From Schwartzia sp. (in: firmicutes) (GTDB lineage Bacteria; Bacillota; Negativicutes; Selenomonadales; Selenomonadaceae): 49,796 nt of DNA. Shown piece after piece: positions 5,143 to 11,512 of this stretch (its first letter is position 1; the number at the start of each line of letters is the position of its first letter). Position numbers and translations under genes: made by a program. The stretch lies in assembly GCA_017480545.1 (NCBI GenBank), contig JAFVAI010000089.1:1-49796 (forward strand), in the 5' to 3' direction. The notes beneath the pieces are model-generated. The model was not told the DNA's origin. It ran no database searches and worked only from the letters and a program-made list of their open reading frames with translations.

Positions 5143-6270
5143 TCACAGCATCGCCAAAAACGCGTCGTTCGTCATGCCGTCGAAATCCTCGCCAACACGG
5201 CGTCGCAGGTACTCATCCGAAACACGGCTGTGGTCGAGACGCTCCATGACGCGATCGAGCATCGTCAAAATCCGTTCCTCGTCCGGCGCCTCGGCCTTCG
5301 CGGCGGCGGCGAGCAGCAGGGAAAATTCCGCCACGCGGAAGCGCAGCGCGAACAGCTTGAAATTCGCCGAAAAGCCGCCGCCGCAGGCGAAGGGATACAG
5401 GCGAAGAAAAAATTCGTTGACCGCGAGATTTTCAAGGATATGGCCGCTCCGCCCGTACAGGACGCGCTCGGCCTCCGCCTCGATTTCCGCGACACGGGCG
5501 GCGAGGGCGGCGACGCGGTCCGGTGGGTACCCCGCCTCATAGAGTTCGCTGAGCAGCGATGCCATATAGCGCAGCCGGGGCAGCGGATCGGCGCGGGGCG
5601 CCATGTCCGCGTCGGCCGCCGCTTCGGCGGCGCAACGGCCGAGCAGTTCCTCTTCCGGCGGCGTTTTGCCGCTGGCCGCCTCCACGGCCATGAAAAAACG
5701 TCCCAACCGCAAAAAGCGCTCGCGCAGTGAAAATTTCCGATCCTGCAAAAAAGCGATGGCACGGATTTGGAACGCGCGAAGCGCGCGCTCCCACCGCAGC
5801 GCCTCCATCGGAGGGCGCACCGCCGAGGACGCGCGGCGCGCGGGAACCATCCGCTCCCCGAATCGCATCGGCTCCCCGGGGAGCAGGGCAAGACGCGCCG
5901 CCACGGGACAGGACAGCGCGAGCGTGCGCTCGACAAAGCCCTCAAAGTGATACGAAACGCGCGGATAGGAATCGCAAATGTCGGGCAGGCACGCCTCGCC
6001 ATGCCGCTTTTGCAACAGGCAAAGCCCGTCCCCGCCGAGGAACGCGCAATTCCCGCTTTCCCCGTGGCGCGTCATCCAACCCGCTCCCTTCCGTTCCAAC
6101 CGGGCAAATATTTTCTCCCGCTCCGGCAACTTTTCCAGCCGCGCCCGCGCCGCGGCGTCCACCGGAATCCGCCAGCCGCAGCAGCAACGGCTGCCGCAGG
6201 CCGCGCCGTCGCAGACAAAATCCCAAAGATACGCGGGCGCGAATACCCGCTCCAACGCCTGTTCCCCCAT
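5143..6270 (-). CDS. fliB: Flagellin lysine-N-methylase (FliB family)
   Basis: A 375-residue cytoplasmic protein. The cysteine-rich N-terminus (FVCDGAACGSRCCCGWRIP, Cys20/25/29/30/31), followed by CAFLGGDGLCLLQ, ICDSYPR and LALSCPVAARL, is the signature of FliB proteins. FliB methylates surface lysines of flagellin, and the clustered cysteines probably hold a metal cluster. The ATG at 6270 has GGAGGG upstream. No flagellin or other flagellar gene is nearby in the window, so it is an orphan here. GC content is very high (long antisense frames are shadows). Confidence 0.85.
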   Translation of the reverse strand: MGEQALERVFAPAYLWDFVCDGAACGSRCCCGWRIPVDAAARARLEKLPEREKIFARLERKGAGWMTRHGESGNCAFLGGDGLCLLQKRHGEACLPDICDSYPRVSYHFEGFVERTLALSCPVAARLALLPGEPMRFGERMVPARRASSAVRPPMEALRWERALRAFQIRAIAFLQDRKFSLRERFLRLGRFFMAVEAASGKTPPEEELLGRCAAEAAADADMAPRADPLPRLRYMASLLSELYEAGYPPDRVAALAARVAEIEAEAERVLYGRSGHILENLAVNEFFLRLYPFACGGGFSANFKLFALRFRVAEFSLLLAAAAKAEAPDEERILTMLDRVMERLDHSRVSDEYLRRRVGEDFDGMTNDAFLAML

Positions 6271-6338: not shown

Positions 6339-6347
6339 TGGTATAAT
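6339..6347 (+). promoter_or_regulatory. Extended -10 promoter before the cobT-like gene
   Basis: TGGTATAAT forms an extended -10 with no clear -35. It is about 44 bases upstream of the start at 6391. No cobalamin riboswitch features were recognised in this short leader. Confidence 0.5.
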
Positions 6348-6390
6348 AGGAACAGCAACCAAATTATAATCACTGTTGGGAGGCCCGTTT

Positions 6391-8298
6391 ATGTCTCTTT
6401 TGGAAAATACGATTGCGAAAATCCAGCCGCCGGACGAGGCGGCCGGCAAGGCCGTCCGGGCGCGTCTCGCGTCCCTGCTCGGCGAGGGCGAGCCGCTGGG
6501 CGCGCTGGGGGAACTTTTGGAAAAATACGCCGCCATTGTGGGCAAGGAACCGCCGATCGAACGGAAGAAATGCGCCATCATCTGCTGCGCCGACCACGGC
6601 GTCGCGGAGATGAACGTCAGCGCCTACCCCCCTTCGACGACAGTGCAGATGACCGCCAATTACCTGATTTCGCGCGGCGCCACCGCCAACGCGCTGTCCA
6701 ATTTTTCCGGCGCGGAGCTGCTCGTCGCCGACCTCGGCATCGCGGCGGACACCGAATGGATTCCGGGACTGATCCGGCGCAAAATCGCCCTCGGCACGAA
6801 AAATTGCGCGAAAGGCCCCGCCATGACCCGTGAGGAAGCAATCCGCGCACTGGAGACCGGCATCGAGCTTGCGGAAAAATGCGTGGAAGACGGCTGCCTT
6901 TGCTTCCTGCCCGGCGAAATGGGCATCGCGAACACGACCTCCTCGGCCTGCGTCGTCGCGGCAGCCTGCTCTCTCACGCCGGAGCAGGCCACCGGCCGCG
7001 GAACGAACATTTCCGACGACCGGCTGAAAATCAAGATCGAAGTTGTGCGGCAGGCTTTGGAAATCAACCGGCCCGACCCGACGGACGGCATCGATCTCTT
7101 GGCGAAGGTCGGCGGGTTTGAGATTGGCTGCATCGCGGGGATTATCCTCGGCGCGGCCGCCCATCGCGGCTTCGTGGTGCTGGACGGCTTCAACACCGGA
7201 GCGGCGGCGCTGATCGCGCAGGCAATCTGTCCTCTCGTCCCCCATTACCTGATGGGCTCCCATCTCGCGGCGGAGCCCGCCCACCGCGCCATGCTCGAAA
7301 AACTCGGCCTGCGCCCCTACATGGATCTGAAATTCCGCCTCGGCGAAGCGACCGGCTCATCCATCGCGGTGAATCTGCTCGATGCCGCGGTCCTCGCCTC
7401 CGGCTATCTTGACCTCGACGCGGGGGACGATTTCTTCGACCATCTGACCATGCCCGCAAAAGCTGTGCCGCTGACGAACAAGACGTTCGACTTTTACCTC
7501 GGCACCTTCCCGAGCCCCTCGCGGGCCGCGATGGAAGCCTGCCGCCTCCGCGTCGACAACCTCGCGAAGCCGATTTACTGTCTCGGCTATCTGGAAGAAA
7601 TCGCGATCGAAATGGCGGGGATTCTCGACGAGGAGCGTCCCGGCCTCGACCTCTCGCGCACGTTGCTCGTCTTCACGGACGGCGCAATGTCGGATGCCCA
7701 GCACCAGCTCACGGCGGCTTTCTCGACCCACGCGGATGCCGAGGTCAAGATTGCGCGTCTGCGTCCCGACCGCCCCTTGACCGATGCTTTCGATTTCGGG
7801 CGCGAAACGGCGGAGGATATTACGTTCTCGTCGTCGCTGCTCGCGCTGGCGCTGACGGAATCGGACAAAGCCGATGCCTTCGGCGCAAAGGCGGCCCTGC
7901 TCCGGGAATCGCTTGTGAACGAAGACGGCTCCCTCCGCTTCGAGCCCCATGACTTCCTGTCCCACGTCCCGAAATCCCTGCAGGCGGATGCCGCCGCGCT
8001 GCTCGGCGCGATGATCGCCGGCGCGCACAATCGCGCGCTGATCGTTCTGGACGACGAGGCGACGGAAATCATCGCGCGCTACGCCGAAGCCCTCTGTCCG
8101 GCTCTCGCGCCCTACGTCCTGCACGTGCAGCCCGCGCTGCTCACCCTCGGCGTCAAAGCCCCCGGCGGCGTCATCGCCTGCCTCGGCCTGAAGCTCGTGG
8201 ACGCCGCGCTCCACATGCTGAACGACATGAAAACCTTTGCCGAAGCCAAAGTCCCGGTAGCAAACGACGGCCCCGGCGCGGGACGGCAAGTGGAGTGA
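6391..8298 (+). CDS. Double-domain CobT-type phosphoribosyltransferase (ArsA/ArsB-like fusion)
   Basis: A 635-residue protein, nearly twice the ~350 residues of CobT, which joins nicotinate mononucleotide to the lower-ligand base in cobamide synthesis. Residues 1-~345 are a CobT domain with GEMGIANTTSS (175-185), VVLDGFNTGAAAL and FRLGEATGSS, the last carrying the likely catalytic Glu319. Residues ~370-635 are a second, divergent CobT domain. LAKPIYCLGYLEEIA (391-405) matches the CobT KPPGSLGRLE region, but the equivalent end motif reads LTLGVKAPGGV (584-594), so the catalytic Glu is gone. Sporomusa ArsA and ArsB are two CobT homologues that together activate phenolic bases; this looks like a fused version. 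GGGAGG at 6378-6383 supports the ATG at 6391. Confidence 0.85.
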   Translation: MSLLENTIAKIQPPDEAAGKAVRARLASLLGEGEPLGALGELLEKYAAIVGKEPPIERKKCAIICCADHGVAEMNVSAYPPSTTVQMTANYLISRGATANALSNFSGAELLVADLGIAADTEWIPGLIRRKIALGTKNCAKGPAMTREEAIRALETGIELAEKCVEDGCLCFLPGEMGIANTTSSACVVAAACSLTPEQATGRGTNISDDRLKIKIEVVRQALEINRPDPTDGIDLLAKVGGFEIGCIAGIILGAAAHRGFVVLDGFNTGAAALIAQAICPLVPHYLMGSHLAAEPAHRAMLEKLGLRPYMDLKFRLGEATGSSIAVNLLDAAVLASGYLDLDAGDDFFDHLTMPAKAVPLTNKTFDFYLGTFPSPSRAAMEACRLRVDNLAKPIYCLGYLEEIAIEMAGILDEERPGLDLSRTLLVFTDGAMSDAQHQLTAAFSTHADAEVKIARLRPDRPLTDAFDFGRETAEDITFSSSLLALALTESDKADAFGAKAALLRESLVNEDGSLRFEPHDFLSHVPKSLQADAAALLGAMIAGAHNRALIVLDDEATEIIARYAEALCPALAPYVLHVQPALLTLGVKAPGGVIACLGLKLVDAALHMLNDMKTFAEAKVPVANDGPGAGRQVE

Positions 8299-8334: not shown

Positions 8335-8371
8335 GTATAGGCAGTTTGTGATTTGACGATTGAGGTGCGCT

Positions 8372-9382
8372 ATGGATATTGACTTTCACTATGGCACAAT
8401 CTACGTGCTTTCCCGTTGGGCGAAATTCGGCAGCGAAAACGCGAACCTGATTGCCCATGTTTCCCAGCTCGTCGACGACAACTTTGACTCGACACCGTTT
8501 TCCGACGAAGAGGAACAGAAAAACATCGCCGAGGGCGTCCATGTCCGCTACTCCTGCCAGAACATCTGGGGCAACGTCAGCGGCAAAGGCAACCGCGAAA
8601 TCTGGATCCCGTTCCATTTCCTGCCCGGTCTGGAGGGCGATACGCAGGAAGAGCAACTGATCTGCAAAAAGAACAGCGAGCTTTCCCATAAGCTCGGCGA
8701 ACGGCTGAAAGAGACCACGCTGGACAATACCAATTTCCCGTTCCGTCTCGGCGTCGGCCTGCATGTATTCGCCGACACTTGGGCGCATCAGGAATTCGCC
8801 GGCATCAACAACATCGTCAACAAGGTGCAAGACCTGATTTTCGTGACCTCCGGTTCCGTCGTCGAAAAGGTGCTGGACGACATCCTCGGCGCGTCGGCCT
8901 TTGTCAGCAAGATTCTCGACGAAGTCATGCCCCTCGGCCACGCGGCCGCCGTCCATTGCCCCGACATGCCCTATCTTTGGTGGAAAAGCGGCGAACGTTT
9001 CACCGACGGGCGCAAGAACTGGGACGAGTTCATGGAGGCGTCCGAGGAAATCTTCCGCATTCTCCAGGAAGTCAGCGGAGAAGAGGTCACCGGGCTATCC
9101 GAGGAGCAGCGCAAGAAAATCATGAAGAGCTTCAAAGGCATCCAGTCCGACAACATCGAGGAACGCTATCAAGAATGGCTGCGCCGCATTCATGAAAACT
9201 ATTTCGAGATCGAGGACTTCGACGAAAACGACGCGACGGCCGAATACAGCATTCCGTATATCTTCGAGGACATCGACTTCCGCCGCCAGTTCTACGACGA
9301 AATCAACGACCATTTCGACTGGGTGCGGGACGAGCTGGAAGAGCATGACATCTTCGTGCTGAAAAGCACACCGATCTATTGA
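8372..9382 (+). CDS. DUF6765-like protein
   Basis: A 336-residue protein starting MDIDFHYGTIYVLSRWA, which resembles the DUF6765 family. It contains GVGLHVFADTWAHQEFAG, a His-x-x-x-Asp-x-x-x-His arrangement reminiscent of zinc-dependent phospholipase C-like helical folds, so a metal-bound hydrolase is possible but unproven. The C-terminal half is acidic and helical. GAGG at 8362-8365 precedes the ATG. It has its own promoter and a strong downstream terminator, so it is probably a single-gene unit. No signal peptide is visible. Confidence 0.65.
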   Translation: MDIDFHYGTIYVLSRWAKFGSENANLIAHVSQLVDDNFDSTPFSDEEEQKNIAEGVHVRYSCQNIWGNVSGKGNREIWIPFHFLPGLEGDTQEEQLICKKNSELSHKLGERLKETTLDNTNFPFRLGVGLHVFADTWAHQEFAGINNIVNKVQDLIFVTSGSVVEKVLDDILGASAFVSKILDEVMPLGHAAAVHCPDMPYLWWKSGERFTDGRKNWDEFMEASEEIFRILQEVSGEEVTGLSEEQRKKIMKSFKGIQSDNIEERYQEWLRRIHENYFEIEDFDENDATAEYSIPYIFEDIDFRRQFYDEINDHFDWVRDELEEHDIFVLKSTPIY

Positions 9383-11142: not shown

Positions 11143-11231
11143 GGAAGGGTGGCCGAGCGGTTTAAGGCGCTAGTTTGATAAACTAGCGGGCGTATTTATA
11201 CGCCCCGAGGGTTCGAATCCCTTCCCTTATT
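11143..11231 (+). tRNA. Class II tRNA-like gene, serine-type body with GAU anticodon; possibly degenerate
   Basis: The cloverleaf can be drawn by hand. The D-arm is GCC/GGC with GAGCGGTTTAA. The anticodon stem CTAGT/ACTAG encloses loop TTGATAA (anticodon GAT at 11177-11179). A 7-bp variable arm GGGCGTA/TACGCCC is present, and the T-loop is TTCGAAT. The D-arm and long variable arm are serine-like, whereas GAU is an isoleucine anticodon, normally on a class I tRNA. The acceptor stem has a G2-A71 mismatch and a G-U end pair, and no CCA is encoded, unlike the tRNA-Gly nearby. It may be a decayed tRNA-Ser(UGA) copy or an unusual tRNA. An intact promoter suggests it is expressed. Confidence 0.6.
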
Positions 11232-11438: not shown

Positions 11439-11512
11439 GCGGGCATAGTTCATCGGTAGAATATCAGCTTCCCAAGCTGAGGAGGGCGGTTCGATTCCGC
11501 TTGCCCGCTCCA
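11439..11512 (+). tRNA. tRNA-Gly (CCC)
   Basis: A complete class I cloverleaf: acceptor GCGGGCA/TGCCCGC, anticodon stem TCAGC/GCTGA with loop TTCCCAA (anticodon CCC), T-loop TTCGATT, discriminator T and an encoded CCA at 11510-11512. It reads GGG codons. Confidence 0.93.

Follow-up and report, generated by a model that had tools for sequence, protein, structure and literature searches.

A fused, single-chain ArsAB that probably activates phenolic cobamide ligands in a rumen Schwartzia species and its relatives among the Selenomonadaceae

The window analysed here is a 49,796-nt stretch of DNA from a rumen bacterium of the Selenomonadaceae (Schwartzia sp.), and its plus strand contains one open frame without a stop codon for a protein of 635 aa, which we refer to as fused arsAB. 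An earlier note, made from the letters of the sequence, had proposed a fused two-domain CobT-like protein at 6391-8298; these coordinates are exact, and one intact coding sequence with two CobT-like halves was found there. The neighbouring genes are lexA and fliB to one side of it and clpX and a DUF6765 gene to the other. The features of the locus are as follows.

5143-6270, minus strand: FliB, flagellin lysine-N-methylase (NF038110), divergent from fused arsAB
6339-6347, plus strand: extended -10-like sequence TGGTATAAT, a by-eye consensus match only
6378..6383, plus strand: Shine-Dalgarno-like GGGAGG, 7 nt 5' of ATG 6391, read by eye
6391..8298, plus strand: fused arsAB gene
6391..7419, plus strand: ArsA half, catalytic, residues 1-343, delimited by PDB, structure and HMM matches
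6625-6627, plus strand: putative base-pocket Tyr79, at the position of Salmonella CobT S80 by alignment
6649-6651, plus strand: putative base-pocket Met87, at the position of Salmonella CobT Q88 by alignment
6913..6939, plus strand: GEMGIANTT, residues 175-183; Glu176 corresponds to CobT E174, Met177 to CobT L175M
7339..7347, plus strand: LGE, residues 317-319; Glu319 corresponds to CobT E317
7420..7518, plus strand: inter-half linker, residues 344-376, of low conservation and mostly at pLDDT 75-81
7519..7638, plus strand: conserved ArsB N-terminal segment, residues 377-416, ACxxxVDNLAKPxxxLGxLEExAxxxAGI
7639..8166, plus strand: degraded ArsB core, residues 417-592, without GEMG and with LGVKAPGG in place of LGE
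8167..8289, plus strand: conserved ArsB C-terminal tail LVDAALHMLNDMKTFAEAKVPVANDGPGAGRQ, residues 593-633, with the lowest dN of the segments
8360-9382, plus strand: DUF6765 protein (PF20551), directly downstream of fused arsAB
11143-11231 and 11439-11509, plus strand: two tRNA genes (Rfam)

The ATG at 6391 is preferred as start codon over an upstream TTG at 6376, which is less likely because GGGAGG lies 7 nt upstream of the ATG and most homologues begin at the equivalent ATG. The -10-like site was not listed by the promoter scan, and no -35 match was found there. A fusion made by frameshift or by assembly is excluded, due to the fact that the identical single frame occurs in isolates, Schwartzia succinivorans DSM 10502 among them, and in dozens of MAGs. 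The AlphaFold model of the 635-aa chain has a mean pLDDT of 93.9 and a pTM of 0.94. In Pfam, DBI_PRT is the sole domain of the protein (418.5 bits), matched in three stretches of which the best covers residues 11-334.

To the first half, the PDB search returned ArsA of Sporomusa ovata (4hdk_A) at E=3.8e-109, followed by CobTs at about 1e-60 to 1e-53. The AlphaFold model of this half superimposed on 4hdm_A, which is ArsA with p-cresol, with Z 53.6 and 1.3 A over 331 residues, and its identity was 51% to S. ovata ArsA vs 34-38% to bacterial CobTs (both from VIA). HMMs for ArsA, ArsB and CobT were built from separate Negativicutes proteins, the CobT set being supplemented with E. coli CobT. With these models the first half scored 481.8 bits for ArsA, 228.6 for ArsB and 200.6 for CobT, and the second half 152.8 bits for ArsB, 19.6 for ArsA and 10.5 for CobT. 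The ArsB match (4hdk_B) of the PDB search takes in the N-terminal stretch of the second half together with its last 38 residues.

The first half has a complete CobT-type active site with both glutamates, in agreement with the earlier note, which had recognised GEMGIANTT and the LGE glutamate in the first domain, and it carries the Tyr/Met/Met pocket set of ArsA. It does not contain the KP-x-x-SL segment or the C-terminal NDMKTFxEA tail, both of which are kept in the second half. In an alignment to E. coli CobT, Tyr, Met, Glu, Met and Glu occupied Salmonella positions 80, 88, 174, 175 and 317 in 21/21 fused N-halves; Tyr at position 80 was found in 21 of 22 ArsA (one Phe) and Met at positions 88 and 175 in all 22, and the equivalents of Glu174 and Glu317 were invariant in both sets. 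Position 88, Met in the fused protein, is Gln in 11 of 12 separate CobTs. Moreover, according to the titles of PDB entries 4kqj and 4kqk, Salmonella CobT S80Y/Q88M/L175M was crystallised with p-cresol. Judged by alignment, the Tyr/Met/Met set of the ArsA half is thus consistent with a phenolic pocket but does not prove one, since CobT of Thermus also has Tyr and Met at positions 80 and 88, in the same local sequence VSAYPQEVTRQM as the fused protein.

Two characterised systems are orthologous to the fused protein. In S. ovata (PDB 4hdk, 4hdm, 4hdn, 4hdr, 4hds), ArsA and ArsB correspond to the two halves in the same order, and ArsA has the same catalytic glutamates and pocket residues as the fused half. 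However, the S. ovata proteins form a heterodimer and come from two genes with an overlap of a few bases, whereas here both halves lie in one chain; no separate polypeptides were found but one 635-aa frame that is conserved in the family. The ArsB half is shortened compared with S. ovata ArsB, and GEMG and LGE are lost from it. Veillonella parvula has an orthologous ArsA and tandem, separate arsA and arsB genes; its ArsB is also without GEMG but, unlike the fused ArsB, is full length (367 aa). V. parvula makes [Cre]Cba (PMC8123684, PMC9600662). CobTs of Salmonella, E. coli and the separate Negativicutes type share superfamily, fold and chemistry with the fused protein; they are homodimers, in Salmonella with a pocket common to the two chains, and fall in a different clade from the fused halves.

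In our reading, at a probability of roughly 0.86, the fused protein is a working single-chain ArsAB, i.e. an NaMN phosphoribosyltransferase that activates phenol or p-cresol. The comparison with S. ovata and V. parvula, together with the pocket residues, makes a role in phenolic cobamides a strong inference. Phenolic bases (phenol, p-cresol) would be converted to alpha-ribotides for attachment to cobamides, and the enzyme would feed CobU, CobS and CobC, so that phenolyl cobamides would be made by default in this organism, given that its genome yielded no second CobT homologue and that neither there nor in its relatives did a bluB or anaerobic bza gene exceed the curated cut-off. No DBI_PRT protein other than the fused one was found in this genome, which is a MAG and 82% complete, so that a second CobT could be missing from it, although complete congeners likewise show just the fusion.

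The remaining late genes of the pathway are located elsewhere in this genome: CbiP, CbiB, CobS, CobD and a CobC-like phosphatase, whose score is just under the cut-off, are together on one contig (C74), and CobU is on another (C17). A local cobamide operon was dismissed, as the neighbours of fused arsAB are unrelated and these late genes lie on other contigs. No cobalamin riboswitch was found upstream of the gene, and only the two tRNAs reach the Rfam gathering score in the window. p-Cresol is liberated from tyrosine by HydG and ThiH, and a HydG of 923 bits (TIGR03955), encoded in the organism's own genome (L128:2970-4400, G000:C18), is a possible internal source of this ligand. HydG/ThiH was dismissed as a general p-cresol source in the family, since only 24 of 37 family genomes have ThiH or HydG.

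All fused proteins aligned have the ArsA residues at the three pocket positions, and in 60 genomes of relatives no bluB or bzaF-type model scored over its curated cut-off, the matches below it presumably being other nitroreductases and ThiC; a benzimidazole source in the relatives was dismissed on these scores. Both results argue against a fused ArsAB that has drifted to activate mainly rumen-derived benzimidazoles or purines, with phenolics secondary, which we regard as unlikely. Some promiscuity is nevertheless to be expected, and exclusive phenolic use should not be assumed, since S. ovata ArsAB binds DMB too (PDB 4hdr). V. parvula produces [Bza]Cba as well as [Cre]Cba, though it also has a separate cobT (PMC8123684), and the fused enzyme, as the sole base activator found here, may have to serve all bases.

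The single-chain ArsAB is supported by phylogeny as well. With E. coli CobT as outgroup, a tree of 55 sequences grouped everything on the ArsA side, fused N-halves included, in one clade and all ArsB together with the fused C-halves in another (99 for each, both starred branches), and placed the separate Negativicutes CobTs outside both. A tree of 84 sequences without the C-halves agreed, with the fused N-halves among ArsA and the separate CobTs outside; here the Selenomonadaceae fused N-halves were sister to Veillonella ArsA (98, starred), a relation that is unstable and did not hold in a 65-row tree, whereas their position within ArsA, with S. ovata and V. parvula, was stable across trees. 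Phylogeny of each half, which the earlier note had suggested as a check, thus places the N-half in the ArsA clade and the C-half in the ArsB clade and neither with CobT. Together with the HMM bits and the PDB matches, these trees bear out the single-chain ArsAB of that note as a statement of orthology and architecture.

For the same reason it is very improbable that the protein is an ordinary CobT, i.e. a DMB phosphoribosyltransferase, with a duplicated and decayed second copy, even though it scores 388.8 bits with TIGR03160, the DMB-specific NCBIfam equivalog for CobT, above the cut-off of 319.3: a duplication predicts that the halves are each other's nearest relatives, but in the trees they group with ArsA and ArsB. 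Duplication within the gene was ruled out by these trees, and ordinary CobT identity by HMM bits and tree despite the TIGR03160 score. As this score is over the cut-off, automatic annotation will probably call fused arsAB CobT.

The second half is divergent, with a top identity of 43% in the 55-sequence tree and a long branch, so the details of the ArsB half rest mainly on its two ends. The KPxxxLGxLE region that the earlier note had seen in the second domain is present as DNLAKPIYCLGYLEEIA at 389-405 (also written DNLAKPIYCLGYLEE), and the glutamate it had reported as lost there is indeed missing: the LGE position reads TLGVKAPGG, and the GEMG motif is absent too. GEMGxxNT was found in 0/41 fused C-halves vs 41/41 fused N-halves. 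As its residues read, the ArsB half cannot act as a second catalytic site of known kind, because it has neither GEMGxxNTT nor the LGE glutamate. Since S. ovata ArsB retains this glutamate, its loss is particular to the fused lineage.

The first ~40 and last ~40 residues of ArsB are strongly conserved among the fused proteins, with mean top-residue frequencies of 0.64 and 0.70 at the ends vs 0.40-0.52 in the core, and the DNL-KP and MKTF ends are kept in all 41 fused C-halves examined. The N-terminal segment gives an ArsB HMM stretch of 60.6 bits. M[KR][TS]F occurs in 41/41 fused C-halves (37 fit a longer regex and the other four read MKTF), and M[KR][TS]Fx[ED] occurs in none of 22 ArsA, 41 fused N-halves and 12 CobTs. 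Among congeners, dN was 0.010-0.032 for the last 43 residues vs 0.065-0.103 for the catalytic half, and dN/dS was about 0.09-0.18 for the ArsB core and about 0.01-0.06 for the tail. The fused ArsB half is under purifying selection, strongest at both ends. That the C-half is a functionless decaying relic, kept merely by being in frame, as its poorly conserved core, nearly absent in Pectinatus, might suggest, is hardly credible when the two ends persist in 41/41 fused proteins and again in separate, shortened ArsB genes, and when these dN/dS values show constraint in the core as well as in the tail.

The fused frame was found in at least 59 of the 62 Selenomonadaceae genomes of a class-wide sample, the other three having matches outside those listed, and also in about nine other family groups of Negativicutes. 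On the tree of N-halves the fused state needs five changes, at least two of them forced by starred branches, and by this tree fusion (or splitting) of arsA and arsB is an event that occurred more than once. Such an event is made easy by the overlap of stop and start in Sporomusa, where the ArsA frame ends at 7038 and ArsB starts at 7034.

ArsB is shortened to different degrees in these genomes. In S. ovata and Veillonella there are two genes, each for about 350 residues, and in several relatives ArsB is a separate protein of just 265-308 residues with the same conserved ends retained. Fusions of 660-690 residues occur in Massilibacillus, Propionispora and others, and in the genus of the window the fusion has about 635 residues with a degraded ArsB core. 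The shortest ArsAB seen is a mini-fusion of 469-478 aa in Pectinatus (L056, L057, L058, L060; 6001-7434), whose ArsB of about 135 residues comprises little beyond the first ~45, including the conserved N-terminal segment, and the last ~40; in the model of the 478-aa form (pLDDT 90) the ArsB part consists of helices only. This natural deletion series of ArsB, from full gene to short gene, fusion and 135-residue remnant, indicates what an ArsA active site requires of ArsB.

For the single-chain ArsAB, we suppose that the ArsA half keeps the full NaMN/base chemistry, and that the two ends of ArsB would pack on the ArsA lobe and help to form the base pocket, like the partner chain in Salmonella CobT. 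Each fused polypeptide would then have one active site with the remaining ArsB lobe as a dispensable scaffold, and the fusion would fix the pairing of ArsA and ArsB in cis, leaving the rest of ArsB free to decay. Which ArsB residues survive is observed directly; their contact with the pocket is suggested by analogy, by which the two end pieces probably complete the active site. Both chains of the SeCobT dimer take part in forming its base pocket, and in archaeal CobTs the ligand site comes from a single chain (PMC9561151). Archaeal CobTs align to 38-618 of our model, through the ArsB-derived tail, and to 42-459 of the Pectinatus model, where these ranges denote the first and last aligned residues only; in the models this is suggestive only of an ArsB tail sitting on the ArsA lobe at the position of the archaeal C-terminus. 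The BluB/CobT2 fusion of Propionibacterium freudenreichii (PMC4657239) likewise involves a CobT domain, but its partner is the DMB synthase BluB and not ArsB, and it is unrelated in event and purpose.

ArsAB itself is already known, and the fused single-chain form appears new; our literature search found no description of a fused ArsAB, with the primary ArsAB papers outside its coverage, and an earlier mention is possible. We lean towards the view that ArsB has become a minimal active-site insert in cis and that, through the fusion, phenolyl cobamides are the default corrinoids in Selenomonadaceae. Selection would then act mainly on the N-terminal DNL-KP-LG-E and the C-terminal NDMKTF-DGPG, about 80 residues, and the Pectinatus ArsB would have been cut from about 350 to about 135 residues.

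Phenolyl cobamides make up 20-34% of rumen corrinoids and 16% in human faeces, and the proven makers named are S. ovata and V. parvula only (PMC8123684). A genome survey predicted makers only from two adjacent cobT genes, giving 27 species (PMC6461909); PMC8123684, which reprints this list, makes no mention of Pectinatus, Anaerovibrio, Propionispira or Mitsuokella. This tandem-gene rule would miss fused forms, since fused arsAB is one gene and is scored as CobT by NCBIfam, and it would overlook an entire family of bacteria from rumen and gut. If our view of the family is true, Selenomonadaceae would be a large source of phenolyl cobamides in the rumen that is invisible to tandem-gene surveys. 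A corrected rule leads to testable predictions in cultured Schwartzia, Propionispira, Pectinatus and Anaerovibrio.

Other arrangements of these genes were also observed in the collection. Open frames of 826-1195 aa surround the fused gene in L134, G084:C25, G113:C1 and G148:C1; at L134:400-2433 (G019) a likely fused gene of 677 aa lies within the longer frame, the excess probably being open upstream frame. Fused-looking matches that span one or more stop codons (G101:C58, G066:C27, G219:C43, G206:C4) may represent tandem genes that the search merged, or genes that were split recently. In L111, L113 and L115 (G043, G044, G038), cobS sits between arsA and arsB, a contextual link of base activation with attachment.
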